Shown here piece by piece: positions 22,182 through 39,982 of a stretch of DNA of 64,000 nt (positions within the stretch are counted from its first letter, which is position 1; each line of letters starts with the position of its first letter). Made by a program: the position numbers and the translations under genes. Source of the DNA: Macrocybe gigantea. Its lineage: Eukaryota > Basidiomycota > Agaricomycetes > Agaricales > Callistosporiaceae. Below the pieces are notes generated by a model, which saw only the letters and a list, made by a program, of their open reading frames with translations, searched no databases and was not told where the DNA came from. Location: contig SJRY01000266.1 of the NCBI GenBank assembly GCA_011319805.1, forward strand, positions 806,001 through 870,000. Direction: 5' to 3'.

Positions 22182-23311
22182 TGATGAGCGCTCCGCACCG
22201 CTGACTGCTGATAAGTCCTAATTTGGTAATCCCGTGCCCGCATTCAAAATCATACCACTACTCGGCCCCCTCAGCATGATACCGCAGTCCAGCCACTAAC
22301 TTCTCGTTCGAGTACTCGGGATGTCGACAACTCTGTGAGGCTTCCATTCCAGGTTCTGGACACTTCGCCAAACACATTGCACCCGTACATTCCGGACATT
22401 CTGTGCTTCCTATACTGCCCAATCCAGTCAGGCAGTCTTATTCCTATATGCCCCCTCTGATTCCCAGATCCCGATATGGCAAGACTACTACCATTTTCGA
22501 TATCGCACCGCCTCACGCCTTCCTGCATTCCCGACACTGCCTCGCTGCAGTACATTCGAAACAAGGGATTTCGAGCGCGCCACTGTTTCATCCACTCTCA
22601 TTTCAAAATTCATGACTCATATTTCACTGATACATTCTACGTTCCTTAGATTATTTTCACGTTCCATTCTACGACGCGTAGCACCAGCTTCGGGATGTTC
22701 TTTTACCTACTGTTTCACCTTTTATGTTCAGATTTCGAACGGACTTACATCTCCCCGACGTTTCAGCCACTAAACGACCCTTTCGAAATCATACGATATG
22801 TTCTCTCATTCGGTTTCGACTTCGCCGGTTATTCCAATACTCGAAATCTTCTCATCTATAAAAACCCATGTACTTGGCATTTGTAACAACATAGAAAAAG
22901 TTACCGTCTCAGTCCTTCAGCAGTCTTGCAGTCTACGACTCATGTGGAGTCCTTGTGTTATCCGATCCCAAAGTGTCGCGCTCATGTGGAGCCACAGTCC
23001 TCAGTCTCGAAATCAGTGTCCCTAGCTTTGCGTGGAAGCCAACTATCGTCGAAACCCTTCCGAAACCCTCACCGAAGCCCTCGATATCATGCAGGAATTC
23101 AGCTAAGTCTAACTACCTTGTGCCGAAAACCCCGAAATCTGCTCGAAACCATCCATAATCACTCCGTTCCATTCCCCCCCCTTTACTCTACAGTCCCTCG
23201 GGTTACTCTGTGACTTGAACAGCTCGTAGTTTATACAGCCTCAGATAGGGACTGACGCTTCCTTCATTCCACCTTGTTGGTTTGTAGGTTAGTGCTTCCT
23301 GACAGTTATCA
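22182..23311 (+). repeat. 5' LTR of element D
   Basis: 1130 bp, TGATGAGCGC...GTTATCA. Differs from the 3' LTR at scattered sites, mainly transitions (five within the first 35 bp). A TATA-like CTATAAAA is present near 22855. Confidence 0.92.
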
Positions 23312-23314
23312 TTT

Positions 23315-23331
23315 TGGAGCCCACCGCGAGG
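23315..23331 (+). other. tRNA-type primer-binding site of element D
   Basis: TGGAGCCCACCGCGAGG begins three bases after the LTR. It starts with TGG, the complement of a tRNA CCA end. The rest would pair with an acceptor stem ending GGTGGGCTCCA; which tRNA that is I cannot say. Unlike A, B and C, I find no LTR-complementary self-primer here. Confidence 0.55.
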
Positions 23332-23559
23332 GGCTAGTTCAAGATTTCAAGTAACCCCAACCGCCAATCTTCTACCTCATCCACTGTTACCTCCCGCACC
23401 AAGGCAGCCGCTCGCAGGAGACAAACCCCAGGTCCCTGAAATCTTCGTCGATCACCTGTTCCGCGCTCCCAAGCACCCTCTCCTGAACTCCTTATCTCTC
23501 TTCCCGACTCACTACCTTCATCTCTCGAACCCTTATCCCCAGCCTCAGTCAAACAAGAA

Positions 23560-25058
23560 ATGGATTCCGATCTAGAACTCCTTTCAGACCTGCTTTCGAC
23601 ACTAGACTCAAGTCCCATCCTTATCAATCCAACTCTATCACAGTCCCCTCCTGAAAGAACCCCTTCCCGAAATATCCAACAACTCCGTGATCTCCAACAA
23701 TCAGTTCGAAATCTGTTATCCGGCATGTCTAACAATGAAACCAACAATCCCGCATCTGGTGCTGGTGTCGGTGACCCTGCTCCCACATGGCTAGTAACTA
23801 TGCCAGCTCATGGCCACTCCACAGCTCCACGTTTCGATCCCACGCAGCCCCGTGAGCTCTCCCGATACTTCAGAGAACTCGACCACCTCTTCAGTGATGC
23901 CGGAGTCATGGATGATGCACAGAAGAAGGAGTATGCCATTCGTTATCCTGATTTTGCGACCTCCGAGCTTTGGGAAAGCCTCCTGGAGTTCAAAGGTCGC
24001 CCTTATGCTGACTTCCGAGATGCCATTCAGCGTCTCTACCCCGGAGCTGAAGACAAACATCGCTATAACATGGGCGATTTAGACTGGCTCATTGGTGAAA
24101 CCAGTCACCTCGGCATCAGGACCCATGAGCAGCTCGCGGAATATTACTGCAAATTTTACACTATCACGAAGTATCTAGTTGACAAAGAAGAGATGTCGGC
24201 CAAAGAGCAAGCTAGGGCCTACGAATGCGCGTTCCCCATGGATTTACAAGCCAAAGTCCGAGATCGCCTCGAAGTCAAGTTCCTGGATTACGATCCCTAT
24301 TTACCCACTCACTTGTCGATATACAAGATGCTGCAGCCTACGTTTTTAAATGAGAAGAACAGCCCGGAGCTTTGTCGGTCCATTACCAGTCCATAGCCTC
24401 CGCAACCCGAAGTACTTCAGCCGCTCCCGAAGCCCCTGTAAAACAGGAGGACCTTAACACCATCCTTGCAAGCATGACTCAAAACATCACAACCGGGATC
24501 AGCGATGTTCTCGTCAAGTTTATGCAGGCACAAGCCAATACTGGAGGCTTCCGACCCTGTGCTCCCGGGAACCGTCCCGAGGGTTGTCATTTCTGTGGTA
24601 AACCTGATTGTCGGATTAGGGACTGTGAGACGGCCGAGAATTATATTTGTGAAGGCCTTATCTGCCGTGATTTCAATGAACGAATCACACTCCCGACACA
24701 GGCCGAAATTCCGAGAGCTATTCAAGGTGCCACTATGCAGGAACGTGTCAACAAATATTATAGGCAGTATCCTAACGAGCGACCACATGGAATCATTACC
24801 TCCAATGCAGACACCACTGGCCAAATGCTCCTTTCCGTCGCAACTTATAATCCTACAGAGAATCCCATAGTCCCGAGTGACTCTGCCTATGCTTATGCCG
24901 TAAATCCCGCTGCCAGTACCCAGGTCAACGACCGCCTGTCTGATATCCAAGAACGTATCCGTCAGCTAAATCTCAAAGCCCAAGTCCTCGCCAACCGCCG
25001 CACCATTATGGATCATGTCGAAATCACCCACAGAGGTCCACCTCGCGCAAACCGCTGA
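23560..25058 (+). pseudogene. gag of element D, with a Cys-for-His zinc knuckle
   Basis: Starts MDSDLELLSDLLSTLDSS. The capsid-like part has STAPRFDPTQPRELSRYFRE and DFATSELWESLLEFKGRPYA. Near 24385 the frame slips by one base (first part frame 1, second part frame 3), most simply a missing base. The nucleocapsid has CHFCGKPDCRIRDC near 24590, where the third ligand of the usual CX2CX4HX4C knuckle is Cys. The frame ends at TGA 25056-25058, after which the same frame stays open into protease. Confidence 0.8.
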
Positions 25059-26258
25059 GTCAATCCCGAAACTCCTGCAGTTGCTTCTTCACCTCGAAAT
25101 CCAGAACCTTCCCCAGGTCAGCCACCGAATCCCGAGGCCAGTACTTCGGCATCAAAAGGTAAAGAAAAGGAAGTATTCCCAGCTCCTTCATCACAGACTC
25201 TTCCCAAGAATACCCAGGCTGAAACCATCCATCACGAGGGACCCATCCATCCCTTCCGCGATGTTCCTGAAGTTCGTTACGCTCCTCCCACCACTCGAAA
25301 CTTTGCAGCTCCCGCCCCAGTAGCCAAACCAACTAACAAGGACCCCTTGAAACAACCTGCCTACAAGAATGTTTTCCCTGTCGTCGATAAGAAGCATGCA
25401 GATGAAGTCTTTGAAACCGTTTTGAAAGGCACCACTCAAATCTCTAACGAGGCCCTCCTTTCCCTTTCCTCCAAAATCAGATCGAAGATGCGCGAGCTTG
25501 TCACTCCAAAACGGGTAGCTAATGAGACCAACCCCATCGCAGTCATGTCCCAGGAGTGCAGCATTCCCGAACCTGTGTTTCGAGCTACCATTGAGGAAAT
25601 CTCCGACGAAGATACCACCCCGTCGAAATCAATCAACCTTAACGAACTCCCTTTCGGCATCACAGATTCCAATGCCACTACATATGGACAAGCTGCGCCA
25701 CTGAGGGGCGCTACCATCATCGAAGACCCAATTTCAACCTACATTTCGAGCATGAGCTGTGACCAGATCGATCCCGAACGCCTCATCGTAGCCAAAGAGA
25801 GTCATGCCCTTCACTCTATCACATGTCTCATCGATCATCAAGACTATGTTGAATGTGTCGTTGATCCCGGATCCCAAATTATAGCCATGTCTGATGCAGT
25901 ATGTCACAAGCTCGGGATCGCCTATGACCCTACCATCCACCTCGATATGCAGTCAGCCAATGGCGAAATCGACAAATCGCTTGGATTATTCTGAAACATC
26001 CCAGTTACTATCAACGAAATCACCCTCTACGCCCAAATCCATGTATTGCCTAACCCTGCCTATGATATCCTCCTTGGTCGCCCCTTTGATGTCTTAACCG
26101 AATCTCTTGTCAAGAATTACTGGAACGAGGATCAAACCATCACAATACACGATCCCAACACCAACAGACATACTACGATCCTGACTCAGCCCCGTGGCAA
26201 ACCAAAATACATGATGCCAGGAAAGAAGACTGCTGCAGTGGATTTTTTTCGCAGATAG
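25059..26258 (+). pseudogene. Linker and protease of element D
   Basis: A Pro/Ser-rich linker leads to the protease-like fold: CVVDPGSQIIAMSDAVCHKL has DPG where D-[ST]-G is usual, followed by the flap region and ILLGRPFDV. A TGA at 25992 interrupts it. The frame ends with TAG at 26256-26258, right after a run of seven T (26246-26252) at which a one-base backward shift leads into pol. Confidence 0.75.
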
Positions 26259-29200
26259 AGGACACGTTAGCTGACGGTGATTATGCTTTCGTTGTTTTCT
26301 CGGACAAAACTCAAGACAATTTGGACCTTCGCCTCGATTACTATGCCCAGGTTCCTGCTCCCAATCCCGTTTCTAATTCCGCTCCCGATATGTCCATTTC
26401 AAATTATCTTTCATCCTTATATCTTTCGGCCTGTGATATTTCCATTTCCCCGATTTCAGCTTTACTGTACGAGTCTAGTGGTCATCCAACATGACCTCAG
26501 ATGCAATTTCAGAGTGGTTTCAACACCACGAACACTTCCTCTTCCGATTTTGTTTATTTATATGATGTGACCAGGTGCACTCCCGAACTTTCTAGACATA
26601 CCCCTCCCGAATCGCGCGATATGTTCGCAAAACATAAATACAAGCCCATCGCCCTCAAAGTCCGTTCCGTCGTTGCCCCACTTCCTGATAATGGCAAATT
26701 TCGAATCCTCTGCGAAATCCGTGGAGACCCCCTTGCTAGTATGCTGAAACTATCCCCAAATCCCCCTCCTTTTATCCTGACCGGTCGCTATACCGAGGAT
26801 CGTCGAAATCTCGTCGACAAGGCCCATCCTGAAGGCTTTCTTTGGCCAGAAGAACAAAGACTGATGCACCACTTTATGTGCCTTCAGAATGGCGCCTTCA
26901 CTTGGACCGACCAAGAGCACGGTCGATTTCGAGAAGACTTTTTCCCTGCCATCGAAATCCCTGTCATTCAGCACAAGCCTTGGATTCACAAGAACATTCC
27001 GATACCTCCTGGTATTTATGATGAAATTTGTCAGCTCATTCGTCGAAAGATCAATGCCGGTGTCTATGAGCCCTCAAATTCCTCCTACCGCTCCCGGTGG
27101 TTCACAGTCGTCAAGAAAGATGGCAAGTCGCTTCGCATCATCCACTCCCTCGAGCCACTAAACAAAGTCACTATCCATCATTCCGGAGTTACCCCGGTCC
27201 CTGATCACTTAGCAGAACAATTTGGTGGCCGTCCCTGTGGTGCGATGCTTGACCTCTATGTTGGCTATGATGAACGACTCCTCGCTGAAAACTCTCGGGA
27301 TCTCACTACGTTCCAAACCCCCTTTGGCGCTATGTGACTTGTTACGCTCCCGATGGGCTGGACCAATTCCGTTCCTATATTCTATGATGATGTAACTTTC
27401 ATCCTACAAGACGAGATACCGCATCTTACCATCCCCTATATCGATGATGTCCCTGTGAAAGGCCCAGATTCCAAATATCGACATCCCGATAACAGTTTCG
27501 AAACCATTCCACAGAATCCCAGCATCCGTCGCTTCGTTTGGGAACACTTTTGCAATCTGAACCGTGTTGTCCAGCGCATGAAGTATTCTGGAGGCACCTT
27601 TTCTGGCACAAAGCTCATGCTCTGTAGCCCCAAAATCACAGTTCTTGGACACTGTTGTACGCCTAAAGGTCGTCTTCCTGATGAATCCTGAGTTGTCGCA
27701 ATCAAAACTTGGAAACCATGCCGAGACCTCTCAGATGTTCGCGCCTTCCTCAGAACGATTGGTGTCATGCGTATCTTTATTCGAAATTTCGCTCATCGTG
27801 CTGACGCCTTAGTCCGCCTTACGTGGAAGAATGTAGACTACGTCTTCAGTCAGGAGCAACTCGACACACAGGAAGACCTGAAACAAGCCCTTATCACTTC
27901 TCCAGCTCTCCGACCCCTCAACTACAAGTCGGAAGCCCCCATTATTCTCGCCGTCGATACCTCCTACATCGCAGTCGGTTACTTCCTTTGCCAATGTGAT
28001 CCCGATAACCCTCGAGTCCGATATTACAACTGTTTCGGATCCATCATACTGAACGATCGCGAACGTCGCTTCTCACAGCCGAAACTCGAAATCTATGGCT
28101 TATTCCGATCGGTCTGTGCAGTACGCATGTACATCATTGGTGTATGAAACCTCGTTGTCGAAGTCAATGCCCGCTACATCAAAGGCATGCTAAACAATCC
28201 CGATATAGTCCCCTCTGCCAGTATCAATCAATGGATCCTGACGATCCTGACATTCCACTTCACACTTGTTCATGTTCCTGGCTCTAGTCACGGTCCTGAT
28301 GGTCTTTCCCGCTGACCAGGCGATCCCGAGCCTGACCAAGATGAAGATTTCGACGATTGGATTGACAGAGTCTATAGCTTCATCCATTTTGTTAACACCC
28401 CTCGATATCGTCCCGAAACACGTCGAAGTCACCTCATTTCGATATACCTAGGACAGGACATTTCAAGTGGGGAGGACAGTCAAGCTGTCTTCCATCGAAA
28501 CTCCTCCTCTCCCAAGTCTGAAGACCGTCTAGAAGCCAACCCTGACCTTCGACAGCTCAGCTCCATCCCTGACTATGTATTTGTTCCTCGTTCGAAATTA
28601 GCCATTGCCGACGATCAGCGTCTCGACCTCGTACAGGACTATTTGACCACCTTGCGTCGTCCACCCAGTCTCACAGATTCTGCTTTCGAGGCCTTTGTTC
28701 AGTATTGCTTCCACTTCTTCGTTGCCGCTGACAAGTTATGGCGAAAGGACAATCAAGGTAGTCACAAACTCATGATCCCTCGAAATCGGCATATGAACAT
28801 CATTGCCCAAGCCCATGATGACCTCGGTCACAAGGGCATCTACCCAACATGTACCTTGGTTTGTGAGTGCTTTTGGTGGCCTCACATGCTGGCCGATATC
28901 TCTTGGTTTTGCAGGACTTGTCACATCTGTCAGCAACGACAGTCCCGACAGGTTCTCATCCTGCCAGTCATGGCCATTCCCGTGCCTCTTTTCGGAAAAT
29001 TCTATGCTGATACCATGAAGATGCCAAAGTCCAATGGCTATCAGTACATCGTGCAAGGTTGTTGCTCCCTCACGCATTATCCTGAATTTCGAGCCCTCTA
29101 GAAAGAAAACGGTCCCACAATTGGTGAATGGCTGTTCCAGGATGTATTATGTCGATGGGGTGGTGTTCGCGAAATTGTCACGGATAACGGTGGTCCCTTC

Positions 29201-30025
29201 GTGGCAGGTCTTGACTACCTCGGGAAACGCTACGGCATCTACCACATCCGAATCTCGACATACAATTCCTGCGCCAACGGGATAGCTGAGCGGCCACATT
29301 ATGATGTTCGTCAATCACTGATAAAGGCAGCAGACGGTGTCGAAAGCAAGTGGTCACAATACGTCCATTCGGTCTTCTATGCCGAAAGAGTCACCGCCCA
29401 CCGTCGAATGGGTTGTTCACCTTATTTCGCGGTAACTGGCACCCATCCCATTCTTCCGTTCGATATCATGGAAGCAACCTACCTGCAGCCTCCTCCCGAA
29501 TCCTTACTATCATCCACAGATCTTATCGCTCATCGAGCTGTCGCCTTACAAAAATGGACTGAACAGCTACAAGCCCTTCATGCCGACGTATATGATACCT
29601 GTAGAAAAGCTGCCGAACATTTTGAAAAGAAGCACTATCACACCATTCGTGATTTCAATTTCAAATGCGGTGCCCTAGTCCTCATCCGAAACACTCGTGT
29701 GGAGAAGAGTCTCGATCGCAAAATGCGACTTCGGTATCTCGGACCACTTATCGTTGTCTCCCGGAATTTCGGAGGCACTTACATCATTGCCGAACTTGAT
29801 GGCACAGTCCTGGATCGCCCCGTAGCAGCATTTCGAGTCATCCCGTACTTTGCTCGCTGTGAAATCACCATTCCCGAAACACTTCTCAATATCGATGCTG
29901 ACCGGCTTCATGAAATGCAAGTCTCAAACGATCAAGGCGATGAAATCCCAGATGATTTCGACATGCCTACCGATAGTGATCCCAAAGTTGATTCCGATGT
30001 TGAAATACTTTCGGCACCACATTAG
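26259..30025 (+). pseudogene. pol of element D: RT, RNase H, integrase
   Basis: RT: WFTVVKKDGKSLRIIHSLEP, MLDLYVGYDERLLAENSRDL, GWTNSVPIFYDDV, catalytic PYIDDVPVKGP. RNase H: LAVDTSYIAVGYFLCQ, NDRERRFSQPKLEIYGL. Integrase: AHDDLGHKG with CRTCHICQQRQ (HHCC), ADTMKMPKSNGYQYIV (first Asp), IVTDNGGPF (second Asp), NGIAERPHYDVRQSL (Glu), and a C-terminal part KMRLRYLGPLIVVSRNFGGT. It ends at TAG 30023-30025 with an acidic tail and has no chromodomain. Stops at Arg or Trp positions (AM*LVTLP, ES*VVAIK, GV*NLVVE, SR*PGDPE, AL*KENG) show decay; the catalytic residues remain. Confidence 0.9.
28465..28479 (+). other. Candidate central polypurine tract of element D
   Basis: AAGTGGGGAGGACAG, identical over 15 nt to the polypurine tract beside the 3' LTR (32474-32488). 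It lies about 56% of the way along the internal region (23312-32489), in the pol reading frame between RNase H and integrase. Confidence 0.55.
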
Positions 30026-30196
30026 CTTAGCTCACTTTCATTAAGTCCAACTCTTTTCGCGTTCATTCAATATCCATTTTCTTTGTTATTTGACACTCTC
30101 ACTTACCATTATCTATTTTCACGATCCCTTTTAAGTCCAGCTTCATGTCCATCAGAAACAAGAAAATACCGCATTCAAAAACAATTATTACAAATT

Positions 30197-31017
30197 TTAT
30201 AGTTCGGACAGAATTCTGCCAAACTCATCTTCCTCTTCATCCATCTTGCCCTCACTCTCATCTGACGACTCGTTTTCTTTCTGGTCATCGCCTTCTTCAC
30301 CGCTCTCCTCCGACTTCTCTTCTCCAGACTCTGATCCTGACGACACTTCCGAGCTTTCTGATGAATCGACCCCAGTATCGATCGATGGCGGTATCGAAAC
30401 CGCGAGCTCCTGAACCATTGGCATCTCGACCAATGTCCCTATGCCTCTCGAAACCATCGACTCCCGACGCTGCGCAAGTAGCCAGCGGACTTCGGTTTCG
30501 ACCGCCCTTGGAATGTTCTGTGCCATGAATTGATAGACTTGAGTTAAGAGCTGACGCTGTTGTAACTCTGTTGCCCGACGAACATGTTGAAGGACATTGC
30601 CACCAAGCTCCAGGTATTCCTCCCGATGATTGGCACATTCACACATAGTATGAGCGGCCGTTTCAAGAGTATCCATGAGATCGTACATGTGTCGGGAATC
30701 CTCATTCATACTCCGGAAGGAGTTCCCTAGAAATTCGAAGGCCTTGATATCATACGGGAGTATGAAATTATAGATGTCCTCGTAGTCCCAATTATCGAAC
30801 CGGAGGGCGTCTCGCAACTGAACATCGCTATCCTGAACACGATCAGCAGCAAGGCACGTCGCGGTCTCAGCAATGTCCTCGAAGCCATTGGGCACGTTTG
30901 GGGCTTCGACAGCCTCCCTCCAGAAATCCTGATCTTCGAAATCGTCCGTGGCAGGCAGTGTTCCCGTTTCGAACCATTGACGTGGCCCAGGAAGTCCTGC
31001 TCACGAAGATAATGAAG

Positions 31018-31055
<38 letters not shown>

Positions 31056-32224
31056 GACTTACGATCATGAAAGCCCGGACCGTAGCACGAGTCCATTGGT
31101 GGCACCGGCATCGGAGGAGGCGTAGGTGCAATAATTGGTTCCGGATGATACGGAATGTCCTCCAAAGGCGCATGCATTTCGATATCCTCAAGATGGGACG
31201 GCGGCTCCTGCGAAGTCTCCGAAATCGATTCCTCAGCCTCGGTATCGTAAGCTCGCATCTTGCCCTTTCCCTTTGGATCGCGATGTGGCCTTGGCTCGGC
31301 ATCCTCGTCCCTAGGCTTTGAATGGACGGTCTTTCAAGACTGTGACCTTGTTCGCATGACCCCGTCGCCAGAGTCAGTTTTAATCCGTGAAGTAGTTTTA
31401 GCTGATTTTACAGCACGTGGCCTTTTGAACAAGCAGCTGAGCTGTTTTTCGACACAGCATTGACAAGGGCCCGGCTCGGAATCGATCTTCTCACAGACTT
31501 CGAAGTCGGCCTTCTTACACCATTCGCACTAAACCGTGGTAGGACTCAGAAACAGTCCGGCGGCAAGGAGACACAATCACTCACCTGCTCATCACCCGTA
31601 ACCTCCTTGAAATTGAGTTTCAGGCGGCGCTCCCGATATCGCTGCTGCACGAGCTTGTTCTTCTCCTGGCGAGCCGCTTTCTTTTCATCCTTGTCGGCAC
31701 GCCGTCGTTTCACTCCCAAGTCCGCACCACCAGCTGCAGAATCTGATGCCCCATGCTTTCAAGAAGGTCCCGCAGTTGGGACACACATAGTCAGCATCAC
31801 ATTCGGTGGCACCAGGGGACCATCCGCGAGCACCATTCCACCAAGCGAAGAACCTTCGAAATCAGCAACCCAGTATAGTGGAGACGAAATAAACCTGACT
31901 CACCAGATCCCAGACTTTCGTACAGGCCCCCAACCTCATCCCGACAATCCTCGTCCAGGTGGCCAACCCACTCGTTGTATCGTGAAACCCAGTCTTGAAA
32001 GACGTCTTCAGGAACGTCTTGACCCTCCTTTGCCCACTCATCCTAATGTCAATACGGATAAAGATATCTCCTCACTCACTCCCCGTTGGACTTACAAAAT
32101 GTTTCGAGACCGCAGCACTAAAGGCCTTGATGGCCTCAATGCTCGCGTTCGGTCCGGGGATGGCCTCGAAGAGCCCTTCAAGCTCGGCAATAGAAGTTTC
32201 AGTCTTGACGATTTCGGCGGACAT
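30197..32224 (-). CDS. Antisense five-exon accessory gene of element D with a Zn2Cys6-like cluster
   Basis: Exons 32224-32096, 32042-31904, 31853-31585, 31528-31063 and 30996-30197 (129, 139, 269, 466, 800 nt) join in phase over 601 codons, with introns bounded by gtaagt/attag, gtgagt/cgaag, gtgagt/tttag and gtaagt/agcag. N-terminus MSAEIVKTETSIAELEGL; exon 2 DEWAKEGQDVPEDVFQDWV; exon 3 ends basic (KRRRADKDEKKAARQEKNK). Exon 4 opens with CEWCKKADFEVC...CQCCVEKQLSC, spacing CX2CX7CX9CX2CX6C, close to the fungal Zn2Cys6 cluster. Exon 5 is helical (YNFILPYDIKAFEFLGNSFR) and ends in a long Glu/Ser-rich acidic tail. Two in-frame TGA (31759-31761, 31334-31336) sit where CGA would give Arg. A DNA-binding or regulatory role is inference. 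Its start is only 266 bp from the 3' LTR. Confidence 0.78.
31022..31053 (+). repeat. A32 homopolymer inside intron 4 of the antisense gene
   Basis: Thirty-two consecutive A on the plus strand, read as a T tract near the 5' part of the intron on the gene strand. Its length may be unreliable in an assembly. Confidence 0.9.
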
Positions 32225-32473
32225 GTTGTGCACAAGACGGTTTCGAGAAGTGGTATGTGATTTGGTGAGAGCTGAGATTTCGACGAGTCGACAAGAAAGG
32301 TGTTCGTACCCATCCCACCCTCCCTTTTATACAGGCGAAATCTGCAAACGACGGGAACGCCCGAAATGCCTCGCGACTTCGTCATGGCAGATCACCTCGC
32401 GAAACCCACATTACCCGAATAACGACCAAGGTCGCCGTTCAATGGGAATGCCAACTGAGGACAGTCGACTGCT

Positions 32474-32489
32474 AAGTGGGGAGGACAGA
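32474..32489 (+). other. 3' polypurine tract of element D
   Basis: AAGTGGGGAGGACAGA directly before the 3' LTR TGATGAG. Confidence 0.8.
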
Positions 32490-33621
32490 TGATGAGCGCT
32501 CCACGCTGCTGACCGCCGATAAGTCCTAATTTGGTAATCCCATGCCCGCATTCGAAATCATACCACTACTCGGCCCCCTCAGCATGATACCGCAGTCCAG
32601 CCGCTGACTTCTCGTTCGAGTACTCGGGATGTCAACAACTCCGTGAGGCTTCCATTCCAGGTCCTGGACACTTCGCCAAATGCATCGCACCCGTACATTC
32701 TGGACATTCTGTGCTTCCTATACTGCCCAATCTGGTCAGGCAGTCTTATTCCTATATGCCCCCCCTGATTCCCAGATCCCGATATGGCAAGACTACTACC
32801 ATTTTCGATATTGCACCACCTCACGCCTTCCTGCGTTCCCGACACTGCCTCGCTGCAGTACATTCGAAACAAGGGATTTTGAGCGCACCACCATTTCATC
32901 CACTCTCATTTCGAAATTCATGACTCATATTTCACTGATACATTCTACGTTCCTTAGATTATTTTCACGTTCCATTCTACGACGCGTAGCACTAGCTTCG
33001 GGATGTTCTTTTACCTACTGTTTCACCTTTTATGTTCAGATTTTGAACGGACTTACATCTCCCCGACGTTTCAGCCACTAAACGACCCTTTCGAAATCAT
33101 ACGATATGTTCTCTCCATTCGGTTTCGACTTCGCCGGTTATTCCGATACTCGAAATCTTCTCATCTATAAAAACTCATGTACTTGGCATTTGTAACAACA
33201 TAGAAAAAGTTACCATCTCAGTCCTTCAGCAGTCTCGCAGTCTACGACTCGTGTGGAGTCCTTGTGTTATCCGATCCCAAAGTGTCGCGCTCGCATGGAG
33301 CCACAGTACTCAGTCTCGAAATCAGTGTCCCTAGCTTCACGTGGAAGCCAACTATCGTCGAAACCCTTCCGAAACCCTCACTGAAGCCCTCGATATCACG
33401 CGGGAATTCAGCTAAGTCTAACCACCTTGTGCCGAAAACCCCGAAATCCGCTCAAAACCATCCATAATCACTCCATTCCATTCCCTCCCCCTTTACTCTA
33501 CAGTCCCTCAGGTTACTCTGTGACTTGAACAGCTCATAGTTTATATAGCCTCGGATAGGGACTGACGCTTCCTTCATTCCACCTTGTTGGTTTGTAGGTT
33601 AGTGCTTCCCGACAGTTATTA
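32490..33621 (+). repeat. 3' LTR of element D
   Basis: 1132 bp; the terminal CA has become TA. Followed by TCGG and the resumed integrase region of element A. Confidence 0.92.
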
Positions 33622-35081
33622 TCGGACGCCCTCTCCCGAAGACCTGACCATGAAAAAGGGGCAAATGATAATGATAACCTCATCCTATTACAGCTGCAAC
33701 TCCTCCGATGCCTTGAGTTCGAACTCAAAGGAGAGGATGAAAGATTGCTATAGAGAATTAGGAATAATCGAGACCACGAGTCTGTCATCGAGAAACTAAT
33801 GGCAAGACATGGAACGGAGTGAGAGGTTCATGATGGGCTTATGCTCTGGCAGAACTGAATCTATATGCCACCCGACACCCAACTCTGCTGTGACATTATC
33901 TACCTACATCACAATTCTACCACAGTAGGCCACTCAGGCTGCTACAAGACAGCAGAACTCGTCTTATGATCATACTGGTGGCCCAGGATCCATGCCGATG
34001 TTCAGAAGCATGTTGATACCTGTGACCTTTGTCAACGTACCAAACCAATATGAGAGAAACCACGAGGGACGTTGTCACTGAATGTTGTCCCCACCTATCC
34101 TTGGCAACGCATCTCCATGGACTTGATCATTGACCTCCCACTGAGTGTAGGGTATGACGTGATCTTTGTCACAGTCGACCGCCTAACCAAGATAGTGTGA
34201 CTAGCACCTACGTTTACAACTGTGACATCTGAAGGCATTGCTCGACTCTTCCAGGACTACGTATGGAAGGATTTTGGCATGCCTGAGTCAGTCATCTGCG
34301 ACAGGGGCAGGACCTTCATATCGCAATTCATGATAGCCCTCAACCAGTTGCTAGAGATCAAAACCAATGTTTCTACTGCCTACTACCCAGAGACCAATGG
34401 CCAAACCGAACGAATCAACCAGGAAATCGAGCAATATCTTTGTGTCTTCGTTAACTATCGACAAGATGACTGGGCCAAGTGGCTCTCCCTTGCTGAATTC
34501 AGCTACAATGATAAGGTCAGCTCCAGTACTGGGTTCACCCCTTTCTACCTTAACTGGGGCTGCCATCCTCGCAAGCCTGGGGATCCTAAGAGAGAGACGA
34601 CTATCGAAGAAGCCGATATGTTTGTGAAGCAGATGAAAAAGACACGCGATGAGGCAAGAGCAGCATTGGAGCGTGCCAACCATGACATGCGAACATTCTA
34701 TGATCACTACCATTAGACTGCACCCGAGTTCTACCCCAGAGACAAAGTGCTGCTTGAAGGCCGCAATATCTGCACCAATCGTCCCTCCAAGAAACTCGAC
34801 TACCGCCGCTTCGGCCCCTTCAAGGTGCTCCAAAAGGTCAGATCACGTGCCTATCACCTACAACTCCCTGCTCGCTGGTGCATCTATCCCATTTTCCATG
34901 TCTCCAACCTATTGCCATACAAATCCGATGACTATATGCCCCATGTCTCATCTGCTCCTGAGATCGTTGATGGAGAAATCGAAGATGAGGTCGAGGATAT
35001 TCTATAGAAGAAGACCCTCTGGGGAAAGACCTGATACCTGGTCAAGTGGAAGGGCTACCCGATGGAGGAAAATGAGTGGCT
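33622..35081 (+). pseudogene. integrase and chromodomain of element A (decayed)
   Basis: Resumes in phase with DALSRRPDH after element D and its TCGG duplication are removed. Integrase zinc region: HHNSTTVGHSGCYKTAEL and CDLCQRTKP. Catalytic core: SMDLIIDLP (first Asp), ICDRGRTFISQF (second Asp), NGQTERINQEIEQYL (Glu). The tail has YRRFGPFKVLQKVRSRAYHL and LPARWCIYPIFHVSNLLPY, then the start of a chromodomain, YLVKWKGYPMEENEWL, cut by element E. Confidence 0.88.
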
Positions 35082-35354
35082 TGTTGGAGGTCGAGTCGAG
35101 CTCCCGCCTCAACATGTTATGTAAGCAGGCTAGAAAATTTCGCTCGCTTCTGGTCGCCCGCCTCAGTGGTCCTACCAGACACACTGAGGCGTGAGTCCCT
35201 TATATTTACTTTTTCTTTATTCCTTACTGAAGTACCCCATAGTATATACTTAGGTACTTACATCACATACTTAGTGGTCCTACCAGACACACTGAGGCTA
35301 TATACTTAGATTTCCGTGTTCACGCGCCCCTTCGGTCCCTGCCTACGTCCAACA
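35082..35354 (+). repeat. 5' LTR of element E
   Basis: 273 bp, TGTTGGAGG...CGTCCAACA. Contains an internal direct repeat AGTGGTCCTACCAGACACAC (about 35174 and 35273). Confidence 0.95.
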
Positions 35355-35366
35355 GGTTATGGGCCC
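35355..35366 (+). other. Half-tRNA(iMet) primer-binding site of element E
   Basis: GGTTATGGGCCC touches the LTR and is the exact complement of the initiator-tRNA anticodon-arm sequence GGGCCCATAACC. Drosophila copia and yeast Ty5 are known to use this internal half-tRNA primer. The gag-pol start codon (35359-35361) lies inside it. Confidence 0.8.
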
Positions 35367-38300
35367 CGCAGACCCTGAAATGACTACGACCATTAACACG
35401 AACACGACAGTGACACTACCGAAACTCCGGAGCGACGGCACGAATTGGCCGACATGGCAGGAGCGGATCGTGAACTATCTCACGTCGAAGAACGTCAAAC
35501 GGCATGTCACGGGAACGGCGCTAAAACCGAAGGAGGTAATTGTTGATGGACAGGACTTCTATCTAGAAGGGGATCCGAAGCGCACAAAGCTCAGCAATGA
35601 AGAAGTTGAGAAGCACGCAAAGACCCTTGATGACTGGGAGGTGAAGGAAGCAACGGCAAAAGAGGTCATCTACCAAACAGTAGACAGCACCACGTTCCTC
35701 CAAATCAAGAACGAAAAGACTATTGCTGCCATGTGGACAAAGCTTATCTCTATTCATTCCCACAAAGGCAACCTTCACGAGATCAATCTGATCACCCAGC
35801 TCCAGAATATGCGCATCACCGAGGGTGGAAGCATGCGCGAGCACCTTACGAGAATGACTGAGCTCCGAGAGCGTCTTACCGAATCTGGAAGCCCGATCCC
35901 TGACATATCCTTCATTTCCCATATCCGTACATCCCTATCTCTCGCACCGACGTTCCGAAACATTTTCCAGACCTACTCGACTGCTGTCCAGACTGCCGGT
36001 AAACAGCTTACCAGCTCGGAGGTCGTGACCTACTTAATCAATGAGGCCACCTCTCTCGAAATGGAAGTCAACATCAACAAATCCAACGCGGCTATGATCA
36101 CAGCGGCAGCAGCGGCACTACCCGAGAAAGGAAAGGGGCAGAAGCCAAGGAAGAAGCGAGATGAACGGAAGTGCACCAACCCAAAGTGCGGGCGAACCGG
36201 TCATACAAAGGAGGACTGCTATGAGGAAGGGGGAGGTAAAGCTCACATCGCGCCCGCATGGTTCAAACACAACAAGGAGAAGGCCAAGTCAAAGGCCGCC
36301 TCCAGCGCGAATGTCTCCGAGAAGCCAACCGAAAATGTCGCAATGGCCGCCTATCTCGAAGAACCCCTGATCGCGCTCAGTTGCACCTCCGACCTCCAGG
36401 AGAAAGCCATCCAGGAGGCTATGGTAACCGGATTCTACGGCGGAACTATTATCGATTGCGGCGCAAGCCACCACTTCACCCCTGATCAGGATCGGCTCCT
36501 AAACTACCGGACTATTGATCCCGAGCCAATCCGCGCCGCAAACGGACAGACATTCCAAGCCCTCGGACAGGGAGACCTCATCGTCAACCTGCCAAACGGT
36601 TCTGAAAAGCCAACGAGAAGCGTTCTTAAAGACGTTTATTACGCACCTCACATAGCCTACACACTGGTCTCTGTACAGACTATGGATCGCCGCGGTTTCG
36701 CATCCCACCAAGAGGATGGGATCTGCTCTATCATTCGGAAGCCTGATCGATCGATTGTCGCCCATATTCCGCTCATCCGAGGACTCTACCGAGTTGTCGA
36801 ACCAAACATTCCCCTTACGCCAACGGCAGCGGTGTCATCTGGTTCGATTTCGATCAATGAGCTGCACCATAGGATGGGTCATGTCAACCACGACGACTTA
36901 CGGAAAATGGTCCAAAAGGGGATGATCACCGGAATCGAACTCGACCCCGACTCCTCAAAGGACCGCTGCGACATCTGTAGCCAAGCCAAAATCATTCGGC
37001 AATCCTTCCCGAAAGAGAGCAAGACCACATACCAGCGATATGGCGAGAAAATCTCAGCCGACATCTGGGGCAAGGCATCTGTAGGCTCGCTCGGCGGAAA
37101 ATACTGGTTCCTGCTATTTATAGACCGGTGGAGCCACGAGGAGAAGGTCTACTTCATGCGGCACAAATCCGAGGCATTCGAGAACTACAAGCATTACGAG
37201 GCATGGGTAAAAGCTCAGAGGGACGTACCAGTTATCAAAACCTTCCAGTGCGATCGAGCGGGCGAGTTAACCAGTGGAAAATTCAATGACCACCTGGAGA
37301 AAGCCGGAACAGTTCGTCACCTAAACGTTCATGACTCCTCATCATCAAATGGAGCAAGCGAACGAGGCAATCGAACTCACGTTGGGGATGCCCGAGCCAT
37401 GCTCATTGACGCGAAGCTTCCTGGATACCTCTGGGCCGAAGCCGTCCGCCACAGCGTCTGGATTCGGAATCGCGTACCAACAAGCACTCTATCCGAGGCA
37501 AAAACGCCACTCGAGATGGCGACAGGAGTCAAGCCAGACCTCTCAAACATATGGGCTTGGGGTGCACCAGTCTGGGTCAAGCAGCTTGAAGTTGGGAAAC
37601 TCGAACCGCAGGCCAGCAAGGGACGATTCGTCGGTTACGACGAGGAATCAAAGGGCTACCGCATCTATTGGCCGAGGAAACACAGGATCAGCATAGAACG
37701 TGATGTTTATCTCGCAAGGGAAGATGCACTCACCCCCGAGGAAGTCAGTCTTGAGGGGGAGTGGGACACATTCAATCCAGACATCCTCGGAGAGCCAGAA
37801 TCTGAACCCGAACCCGAGCCTGAACCCGGACCAGAGCCAGAGCAGCAACCGAGAGAGCCCGAAGCTGTGAGGCCACCCGAACACGTCGAAGTCGAGGCAC
37901 CAGTTGAAGAACCGCCTCCTCACGCGCGAAGACGCCGAAACTCCCTTGATGGTCTCCCGAGCTTCGACGAGAACACATACGGTCGCGGAAAGCGCAACTG
38001 AAACCCACTGCCCGAAGCGCACGCATCCGAGAGTGCCAACCCACTCGACTGGCTCGAAGAAGCCATGTTGACGGCCCTCGTATCGAGCGAGGACGAGCCA
38101 ACCCTGGATGAGGCCCTAAACGGCAAGGAGAGTCAGGACTGGCGACAGGCAATTAAAGCTGAGCTTGACCAGTTTGAAAAACTCAATAGCTGGGAACTTG
38201 TAATCCCACCGAAGGATGCTAACGTTATCCCTTGCCGCTACACATTCCGCAGGAAGCGAGACGATGAAGGCCGGATTGTCCGGTTCAAGGCCCGTCTTGT

Positions 38301-39683
38301 CGCAAAGGGGTTCAGGCAGCGATTCGGAGTCGACTACAAGGACACCTTTGCCCCCACAGTCCGCGCCGAAACCCTACGAATTTTATTATCGTTAGCGGCC
38401 TCAAAAGGCGCTATCATCACGCAGTGCGACGCCAAAAATGCTTATCTGAATGCCCGACTACCTCCCGGCATTGTCATCTACATGAAGCTCCCCCTCAGTA
38501 CCTCGAATTCCACAGATTGCCGAAGGACCTGGAGGACAAGGAGGATGCCGTGGCCTGCAAGCTCCTTGCGCCGGTTTACGGGACGAAACAGGGTGCACAC
38601 GACTGGTACGCGACTGTTCGACGAATTGCCGAGGGGCTTGGACTCAAGCGCCTGGAGGCGGACCACGCCGTCTTCTACAAAACTGACGGCGACAAATACA
38701 CGATCATGGCCGCCGCAACGGACGACTTCACGATCCTCGCTGACTCTGAGCCAGCCGCCAGCATCTTGAAGCGCCAGCTCTCCGAGCACTTCGAGATAGT
38801 CGATCTCGGACCAATCAACTGGCTGCTCGGGGTCAAGATTGAGCGCGACCTGGAGGCTAAAACGATTTCGTTAAGCCAAAAGGCTTATATTGAGGAGATG
38901 GCAGAAAAGTACGGACTCGAGAGTGCGCGCGTTGCTGCAACACCACTCGAACCCGCTGTTGACCTCACCCCCGGATCGCCGTCCATGTCGCCAAAGCTCC
39001 TAACGCCTGCCGAAAAGACCCGCTATCGAGAAATCGTCGGGTCGCTGATGTATGCCGCCGTTATGACCCGTCCCGAGATTGCGTTCGCTGTATCGACGCT
39101 GTCCCAGAACTTTGAAGCGCCGAGCACGACGCACCTCGACGCGGCTAAACGCGTTGTCAGATACCTCATCGGGACGAAAGAAATGAGACTCACCTTGGGC
39201 GGAAAACACACCGCCGTCTTCGGGTACTCGGACGCCGACTGGGCTTCCCAGCTCCACCGCCACTCGATTTCCGGTTACGTCTTCTTCGTCGGAGACGGTG
39301 CCGTGTCGTGGAGCAGCAAAAAGCAACCTATAATAACCACATCGAGCACGGAGTCAGAATACGTGGCGCTCACCCACGCATCAAAAGAATTAATTTGGAT
39401 TCAAAAATTACTTACCGAAATTTCCTTCATTTTTCCTTTCCAAAAGCCGACGACTTTCTTCTGCGACAACCAAGGCGCAATTACGCTGTCGAAGGACGCC
39501 AAATTTCATGGACGAACGAAGCATATCGACGTCCATTTCCATTTCGTCCGCCAAACTGTCGAAATGGGCGCTGCGAGCCTCGAGTACTGCCCGACGGCCG
39601 ATATGGTTGCCGACTCGATGACGAAAGCCCTCACGCGACTGAAATTTGAAAAACATCGAGCTTTGATGGGCGTCGGTGCCTGA
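35359..39683 (+). pseudogene. gag-pol of element E (Ty1/copia), one stop and one frameshift
   Basis: Gag (UBN2/copia type): LRSDGTNWPTWQERIVNYLT, then the knuckle CTNPKCGRTGHTKEDC. Protease IIDCGASHHFTP (DCG instead of DSG). Integrase HHCC (HRMGHVNHDDL, CDICSQAK), core SADIWGKASVG, FQCDRAGELTSG, NGASERGNRTHV. A long Glu-Pro repeat lies near 37790-37850. TGA at 37999-38001 replaces Arg or Trp. RT: ELDQFEKLNSWELV, RFKARLVAKGFRQRFGVDY, ATDDFTILAD. RNase H: YSDADWASQLHRHSISGYVF, SSTESEYVALTHASKELIWI. A one-base loss in a C run near 38494 shifts the frame. Both defects could be sequencing artefacts, in which case this copy would be intact. Confidence 0.93.
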
Positions 39684-39709
39684 CGGACGGTCGTTGACTC
39701 GAGGGGGAG

Positions 39710-39982
39710 TGTTGGAGGTCGAGTCGAGCTCCCGCCTCAACACGTTATGTAAGCGGGCTAGAAAATTTCGCTCGCTTCTGGTCGCCCGCCTCAGTGGTCC
39801 TACCAGACACACTGAGGCGTGAGTCCCTTATATTTACTTTTTCTTTATTCCTTACTGAAGTACCCCATAGTATATACTTAGGTACTTACATCACATACTT
39901 AGTGGTCCTACCAGACACACTGAGGCTATATACTTAGATTTCCGTGTTCACGCGCCCCTTCGGTCCCTGCCTACGTCCAACA
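39710..39982 (+). repeat. 3' LTR of element E
   Basis: 273 bp. Preceded by the polypurine tract CTCGAGGGGGAG. The two differences from the 5' LTR are transitions at CpG or CpA sites. Confidence 0.95.

Follow-up and report, generated by a model that had tools for sequence, protein, structure and literature searches.

A multi-exon antisense gene with bZIP-like and zinc-cluster-like parts is carried by a Ty3/Gypsy retrotransposon family of Macrocybe gigantea

When a multi-exon reading frame lies inside a retrotransposon on the strand opposite the element's own genes, the question is whether it is a gene of that element and, if so, what its product would do. Such a frame is found in element D, which occupies about 22182-33621 of a 64-kb stretch (64,000 nucleotides, called the window below) of contig SJRY01000266.1 of Macrocybe gigantea. 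The antisense gene (32224-30197, minus strand) is located opposite gag-pol, between the pol stop codon (30025) and the 3′ long terminal repeat (LTR, from 32490). Comparison of its copies within this genome demonstrates that it is a real, selected protein-coding gene under about the same constraint as the integrase, and that it belongs to element D. We consider it fairly probable (about 0.6) that the clade of D carries a resident antisense accessory gene encoding a DNA-binding regulator that serves the element.

The gene consists of 600 codons plus a stop codon (601) in five exons with GT..AG junctions. Among the acceptor combinations near the junctions proposed by a first-pass annotation of the window, with at most three stops, a single one shows AG at every one of the four acceptors and is in frame; the five in-phase exons of 601 codons with canonical borders described in that annotation were thus reproduced. 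The parts of the gene are as follows, with the ratio of nonsynonymous to synonymous polymorphism (pN/pS) given for each exon.

32325..32331, minus strand: TATA-like box, about 105 bp 5′ of the antisense ATG and ahead of the LTR
32096..32224, minus strand: exon 1, with the ATG (pN/pS 0.28)
31904..32042, minus strand: exon 2 (pN/pS 0.18)
31585..31853, minus strand: exon 3, with a bZIP-like basic stretch at its end (pN/pS 0.59, the weakest constraint of the five exons)
31063..31528, minus strand: exon 4, with the six-cysteine cluster at its start (pN/pS 0.35)
31415..31528, minus strand: six-cysteine cluster CX2CX7CX9CX2CX6C (codons 180-211) and the basic residues that follow it
30197..30996, minus strand: exon 5, with a helical part of low confidence, an acidic tail and the TAA stop (pN/pS 0.34)
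32095-32043, 31903-31854, 31584-31529 and 31062-30997, minus strand: the four introns

The assembly (41.2 Mb, 333 contigs) was searched at the DNA level with the antisense gene, and at least 41 matches were obtained, which merged into 36 loci; 26 copies were aligned. An additional match on contig C197 (E 0.06) was dropped, its frame having no six cysteines. At 31 of the 36 loci the gene adjoins an integrase on the opposite strand, and the gap between the two is 170-189 bp in 29 of these 31 (232 and -17 bp in the other two). Of the five loci without an integrase, one lies at a contig end and one is the second piece of a copy broken by an insertion; the others are a 132-bp fragment on C81 and two fragments at a single place on contig C40, close to a solo LTR. 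The comparison from the integrase side covered 37 loci, all of at least 69% identity (rows at about 25% represent other Gypsy families and were left out), and the antisense gene was found at all 37, as a close match at 31 and as a diverged homologue of exon 5 at six. These six loci form a related subfamily with about 70% amino acid identity in the integrase; its exon 5 homologue (about 31% amino acid identity) occupies the same antisense place at every locus, and homologues of exons 1-4 were not seen at the six loci. Because 31 loci adjoin an integrase in antisense orientation and the whole related subfamily keeps exon 5, the gene belongs to element D. Judged by these identities, the antisense protein diverges much faster than the integrase between subfamilies, yet it stays with the element. 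Two places with a reverse transcriptase (RT) and no listed integrase were also checked; one runs into a contig end, and the other shows no trace of D over the 3 kb covered.

Selection was counted on 24 of the 26 copies, leaving out L024 (with a 325-bp insert) and L026 (truncated). In the frame of the gene pN/pS was 0.354 (bootstrap 0.29-0.43), compared with 0.907 and 0.746 in the shifted frames of the same strand and 0.845, 0.417 and 0.869 on the other strand. The value of 0.417 comes from the frame whose wobble bases face those of the gene, and 11 codons of that frame are stops in most copies. The integrase region gave 0.376 (22 copies), and on the 19 copies common to both sets the antisense gene had 0.339 versus 0.373 for the integrase. 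As CpG decay could bias pN/pS, a context-dependent mutation model was applied: relative to the neutral expectation, the CpG-aware ratio of nonsynonymous to synonymous changes was 0.52 with rates from noncoding sites and 0.60 with rates from coding sites, and it was 1.27 and 1.17 in the shifted frames. When exons 4 and 5 were compared with the diverged C40 copy, the ratio of nonsynonymous to synonymous divergence (dN/dS) was 0.22 (0.85 and 0.67 in the shifted frames), and the differences at codon positions 1, 2 and 3 were distributed as 62:68:124. Because decay of the copies after insertion pulls such ratios toward 1, past constraint was probably stronger than measured. Selection on the protein over many transpositions indicates that the protein helped the element to spread.

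The splice dinucleotides were variable in 2 of 384 cells, compared with 172 of 4373 in the remaining intron sequence of the 24 copies. GT and AG are intact at the four introns in the 26 copies, except for the intron 4 donor of two copies, and this conservation favours splicing of the predicted transcript. The window copy has internal TGA stops at codons 121 and 244, where the aligned copies have CGA in 20 and 21 cases, CAA in 2 and 1, and TGA in 4 each; the mixture fits CpG decay on either strand and agrees with the earlier reading of both TGA as probable CGA codons. The TATA-like box reads TATAAAA in 16 of the 26 copies and CATAAAA in 7; one has a base missing, and two have no such stretch in the aligned part. 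This box may be the gene's own promoter, used for antisense transcription. Since frame, splice sites and cysteines are conserved across copies, the gene is far beyond chance. Together with the linkage, this supports the first-pass view of an accessory gene that travels with its element, and the homologues expected beside other D copies do occur there, at the 31 loci above. They are not confined to free-standing host genes, as no free-standing homologue or paralogue was found in this genome.

The cluster spacing had been read correctly in the first-pass annotation, and the pattern is matched in 23 of the 26 copies; the other three carry indels. The six cysteines are kept in all 26 copies (1 of 156 cells unreadable) and in the C40 copy, which is 66% identical in exon 4. 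At the positions of the window copy's seven other cysteines, 14 to 21 of the 26 copies have arginine, which points to CpG-type decay in the window copy. Zn2Cys6 clusters (PF00172) have the spacing CX2CX6CX5-12CX2CX6-8C, and their fold has helices beginning after the first and fourth cysteines; LEU3 has CX9CX2CX6C as its second half. The antisense protein shares with the LEU3/GAL4 type the six cysteines, the LEU3-like second half, basic residues around the cluster and an acidic tail. It differs from this type in its first loop, which is X7 instead of X6, in having a basic stretch before the cluster, and in scoring below the Pfam cut-off. In a Pfam scan of 14 of the 18 stop-free exon 4s, Zn_clus was the only family found (11 of 14 copies, best E 0.47), and the only PDB match to the exon 4 profile was LEU3 (E 6.5). 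AlphaFold placed two short helices in exon 4 starting after the first and fourth cysteines, at a confidence too low to count. The first-pass description of the cluster as Zn2Cys6-like stands for the six cysteines and four of the five spacers, and falls short in the first loop, one residue too long, and in the Zn_clus score given below.

A bZIP-like basic stretch, which the first-pass annotation did not contain, lies at the end of exon 3, just N-terminal of the cysteine cluster. The TATA-like box and the absence of a fully open copy likewise go beyond that annotation. Cut pieces of this region matched Pfam bZIP_1 at E 0.006 (a 44-residue piece) and E 0.008, at profile positions 4-26 of 64. The bZIP basic-region signature (PROSITE PS00036) occurs in 13 of the 26 copies; when the basic stretch of one copy was shuffled 20000 times, 14 of the shuffled sequences fitted it. 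The PDB matches to an 88-residue core were ATF-4 (E 0.79), an unrelated UvrA domain (E 1.3) and FosB (E 2.4 and 3.6). The C-terminus of the protein is strongly acidic.

From these parts we propose that the antisense gene would be transcribed from its own TATA-like promoter ahead of the 3′ LTR, toward the pol end, and that the transcript would be spliced from five exons. The product of about 600 amino acids would be built like a nuclear DNA-binding regulator, with, in order, an N-terminal part, the bZIP-like stretch, the six-cysteine motif, a serine/proline-rich linker, a helix-rich part and the acidic tail. The protein is predicted to bind zinc and DNA. The most likely role would be to tune transcription of the element, at the LTR or at the gene's own promoter, or to act on host genes that limit the element.

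Several results weigh against such a regulator. The score of exon 4 for Zn_clus is 10-11 bits against a cut-off of 21, in the second half of the profile only, and the cut pieces of the basic stretch score 16.7-17.1 bits for bZIP (PF00170) against a cut-off of 27.6. The 334-residue protein from exons 1-4 of another copy has no bZIP match, and Pfam gave no family at E ≤ 10 for it or for the whole window protein (with X at the stops). A genome-wide Zn_clus search returned 55 matches at E ≤ 1, of which 38 are above the cut-off on their own, and no D copy is among the 55. A comparison with GAL4 (hhalign) was rejected, with a probability of 6% and the alignment out of register. The bZIP signature is missing from the window copy, and direct reading after the basic stretch found no heptad leucines of a leucine zipper, the cysteine cluster being there. 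The AlphaFold models were poor, with a mean predicted local distance difference test score (pLDDT) of 57 for exon 4 and of 42 for exon 5, which was modelled as helical. By pN/pS the parts that bear the motifs, exon 3 and the cysteine region (0.48), are less constrained than the rest. The raw variants per site at codon positions 1-3 show a modest third-position excess, both for shared variants (0.092, 0.105 and 0.160) and for singletons (0.116, 0.093 and 0.148). None of the 26 copies is open end to end, which suggests that the family is now inactive in this assembly, or else that decay is compounded by single-base errors of assembly. Finally, the protein database gave no homologue of the whole antisense protein at E ≤ 1 (7998 candidates scored) and none of most of exon 5 at E ≤ 10 (624 candidates), in a search that depends on 5-residue words in common and could overlook relatives at 30% identity.

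As the same database contains 1008 relatives of the D RT and no homologue of the antisense protein, the gene probably evolves faster or is narrower in distribution. No homologue was found in the viral and bacterial/archaeal genome contigs, collections that are not expected to include fungi. Single-base deletions are present in the exons of many copies and reflect either true decay or homopolymer errors of the assembly. With neither family cut-off passed, the antisense protein resembles Zn2Cys6 or bZIP proteins and cannot be filed as either.

A narrower form of the regulator reading is that the clade evolved a composite transcription factor of its own, with a bZIP-type basic region immediately ahead of a Zn2Cys6-like cluster, which would be expressed antisense from the gene's own promoter and control the LTR, possibly at ATGACTCAT; we put this forward tentatively and regard it as doubtful. 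ATGACTCAT is a GCN4/AP-1 site at 32920-32928 of the LTR, also present in the 5′ LTR, and all 26 D-family LTR sequences compared have it unchanged (both window LTRs and one from each of 24 loci); 115 of 1125 nine-base LTR windows are as invariant. The site is absent at the aligned place in the LTR of the diverged subfamily, which adds to the points against, and as a candidate bZIP target it is a lead only. The sites TTACGTAA and TGACGTCA are absent from 32225-33622, where CGG..CCG pairs number 5 (near the shuffled expectation of 3.6) and CCG..CGG pairs number 0 (below the expectation of 3.6). A parallel in arrangement is HBZ of human T-cell leukemia virus type 1 (HTLV-1), a spliced antisense gene at the 3′ end whose product is a bZIP factor that acts on transcription. 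The leucine zipper of HBZ is complete and its promoter is inside the 3′ LTR, whereas the D protein has a cysteine cluster in place of the zipper and the TATA-like box of D lies ahead of the LTR. If the composite-factor reading were true, the gene would be a fungal counterpart of HTLV HBZ, arrived at independently.

Rather than acting as a transcription factor, the product of a real accessory gene could act on nucleic acid in the replication cycle, as an RNA or cDNA chaperone, in nuclear import of cDNA, in integration targeting or in shielding from silencing; taken jointly, these roles are possible and somewhat unlikely. The best weak matches of the protein are mostly DNA-binding domains of transcription factors, and the cluster spacing differs from that of CCHC knuckles, both of which speak against this reading. 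On the other side, a basic stretch, a cysteine cluster and an acidic tail fit RNA or cDNA binding equally well, neither DNA-binding family cut-off is reached, and a passage of PMC7264820 considers nuclear import of the pre-integration complex in connection with the antisense open reading frame (ORF) products of plant elements. It is improbable that the gene is a recently captured host gene and a passenger of one burst of copies. Its five exons with introns do resemble a host gene, and insertion in antisense orientation would keep the introns, the element RNA being the complementary strand; set against this, this genome has yielded no host paralogue, the gene is kept by selection, and its presence at about 31% identity in the diverged subfamily means that it is old. 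An old capture is a plausible origin. Even less probable is a function of the antisense transcript itself, in sense-antisense control or as a source of small RNA, with coding secondary. The gene and pol do converge, their stop codons lying 171 bp apart, and antisense regulatory RNAs are known from other elements according to a passage of PMC7264820; as a sole role, however, this would leave the pN/pS of 0.35, the wobble pattern and the kept cysteines and splice sites unexplained. A chance ORF with chance splice signals, which would suit the lack of a Pfam family above cut-off and of an outside homologue, has a negligible probability, being refuted by the frame-specific constraint and contradicted by all comparative tests.

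Antisense genes in LTR elements have been described previously. Boty of Botrytis carries the antisense gene brtn (PMC7264820, PMC8365987, PMC4227169), and Boty-type antisense genes are given for Botrytis and Sclerotinia in passages of PMC7264820, PMC11963269, PMC8365987 and PMC4227169. Boty and D are both fungal Ty3/Gypsy elements with an extra gene antisense to gag-pol. The Boty host differs in being an ascomycete, one passage places a chromodomain in the element, and the passages concerned mention no bZIP-like or Zn2Cys6-like content. In plants, antisense genes between pol and the 3′ LTR are listed for maize Grande, rice RIRE2, Silene Retand and bean PvRetro13 in the same four sources, and their products are described as having no clear similarity to other proteins in the passage of PMC7264820. 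Grande gene23 and the RIRE2 gene resemble the D gene as antisense ORFs between pol and the 3′ LTR (passages of PMC7264820 and PMC11963269), and gene23 further has its own promoter and a nuclear protein, both of which are predicted for D; they differ in belonging to plant elements, and the D gene is multi-exon with bZIP-like and zinc-cluster-like parts. The Retand ORF is, in the passage of PMC11963269, conserved, antisense, located between pol and the 3′ LTR, predicted to bind DNA and proposed as a regulator, as we propose for D; it belongs to a plant element and has the TRP28 domain (PF04195). The HTLV antisense genes are mentioned alongside these cases in passages of PMC11963269 and PMC7264820.

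The D gene has two features of the antisense accessory genes (aORF-3R) of LTR retrotransposons: it occupies the stretch from pol to the 3′ LTR on the strand opposite gag-pol, and it is present in most copies of the family, not in a single transduced copy. The main text of a survey of fungal LTR elements (PMC3248453) contains no mention of antisense, zinc or an additional ORF. No basidiomycete case and no Zn2Cys6-like or bZIP-like antisense product was found in the open-licence literature, partly in excerpt, where absence is not proof. The novelty claimed in the first-pass annotation for Zn2Cys6 is not contradicted, as the brtn passages mention no such domain; antisense accessory genes were already known, and the case is somewhat less unprecedented than claimed. 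As far as this literature search shows, the kind of gene is known, and the host group, the exon structure and the pair of domains are new. With this gene the retroelements known to maintain an antisense accessory gene extend to a further fungal lineage, probably a basidiomycete one. The example is multi-exon, its evidence of selection is strong and specific to the frame, and motifs of DNA-binding type can be recognised in it. Exons 3-4 as a fragment and the LTR as a target also make the function of such genes open to testing.

Element D itself has the following features.

22182..23309, plus strand: 5′ LTR, right end accurate to a few bases, 95.2% identical to the 3′ LTR over 1130 bp
23440..25058, plus strand: gag region, assigned by position, with two overlapping open stretches
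25059..25994, plus strand: open stretch, part of which resembles an aspartic protease (gag-asp_proteas of Pfam at E 5e-4; 21 bits, below the cut-off of 28.2)
26495..28147, plus strand: RT and RNase H, interrupted by stops (RT_RNaseH_2, E 6e-12)
28316..30025, plus strand: integrase with one internal stop (Integrase_H2C2, E 2.5e-16, in the first part), ending in the pol stop codon at 30023-30025
32474..32488, plus strand: polypurine tract AAGTGGGGAGGACAG, 5′ of the 3′ LTR
32490..33619, plus strand: 3′ LTR, right end accurate to a few bases, with a TATA box at 33166

With its LTRs and its protease, RT, RNase H and integrase in this order, D is a Ty3/Gypsy-type LTR retrotransposon, an assignment in which the protease is below the Pfam cut-off and the RT is known through relatives that bear PF00078. 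Pfam gave no match for the two open stretches of the gag region or for the RT piece alone. The 1008 RT relatives in the protein database include several with PF00078; among the 120 matches listed, identity was 56-73% and Mycena venus was the only named source, as suits an Agaricomycete. The 55 Zn_clus matches of the genome, together with 22 hydrophobin matches, mark it as fungal. The second part of the integrase (29102-30022) was assigned by position, with no Pfam match, and the last part of pol has no Pfam match to a chromodomain. The pol of the window copy is interrupted by stops, and the TATA box of the LTR is identical across 26 LTR sequences. An exact second copy of AAGTGGGGAGGACAG at 28465-28479, inside pol between RNase H and integrase, is likely to be a central polypurine tract.

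The related subfamily is dead. Its six loci, on contigs C192, C322, C323 and C324, have nearly the same stop pattern, and L031, L032 and L041 are about 99% identical over 4.7 kb. In L031 (8577-8579), L032 and L041 (about 1534) the LTR start is joined head-to-head to pol, as after self-integration, and C192 and C324 each carry two loci of the subfamily in opposite orientation.

A second element in the window, at 35082-39982, has 273-bp end stretches that are 99% identical and a 901-residue open frame at 35296-38001; it looks young and, with the frame judged by eye, is apparently Copia-like. Later insertions have interrupted two D copies, one in its antisense gene (G000, C247:88189-94707) and the other in its LTR (L039, 2271-5338), and the insertion that splits the G000 antisense gene contains a distant integrase match.

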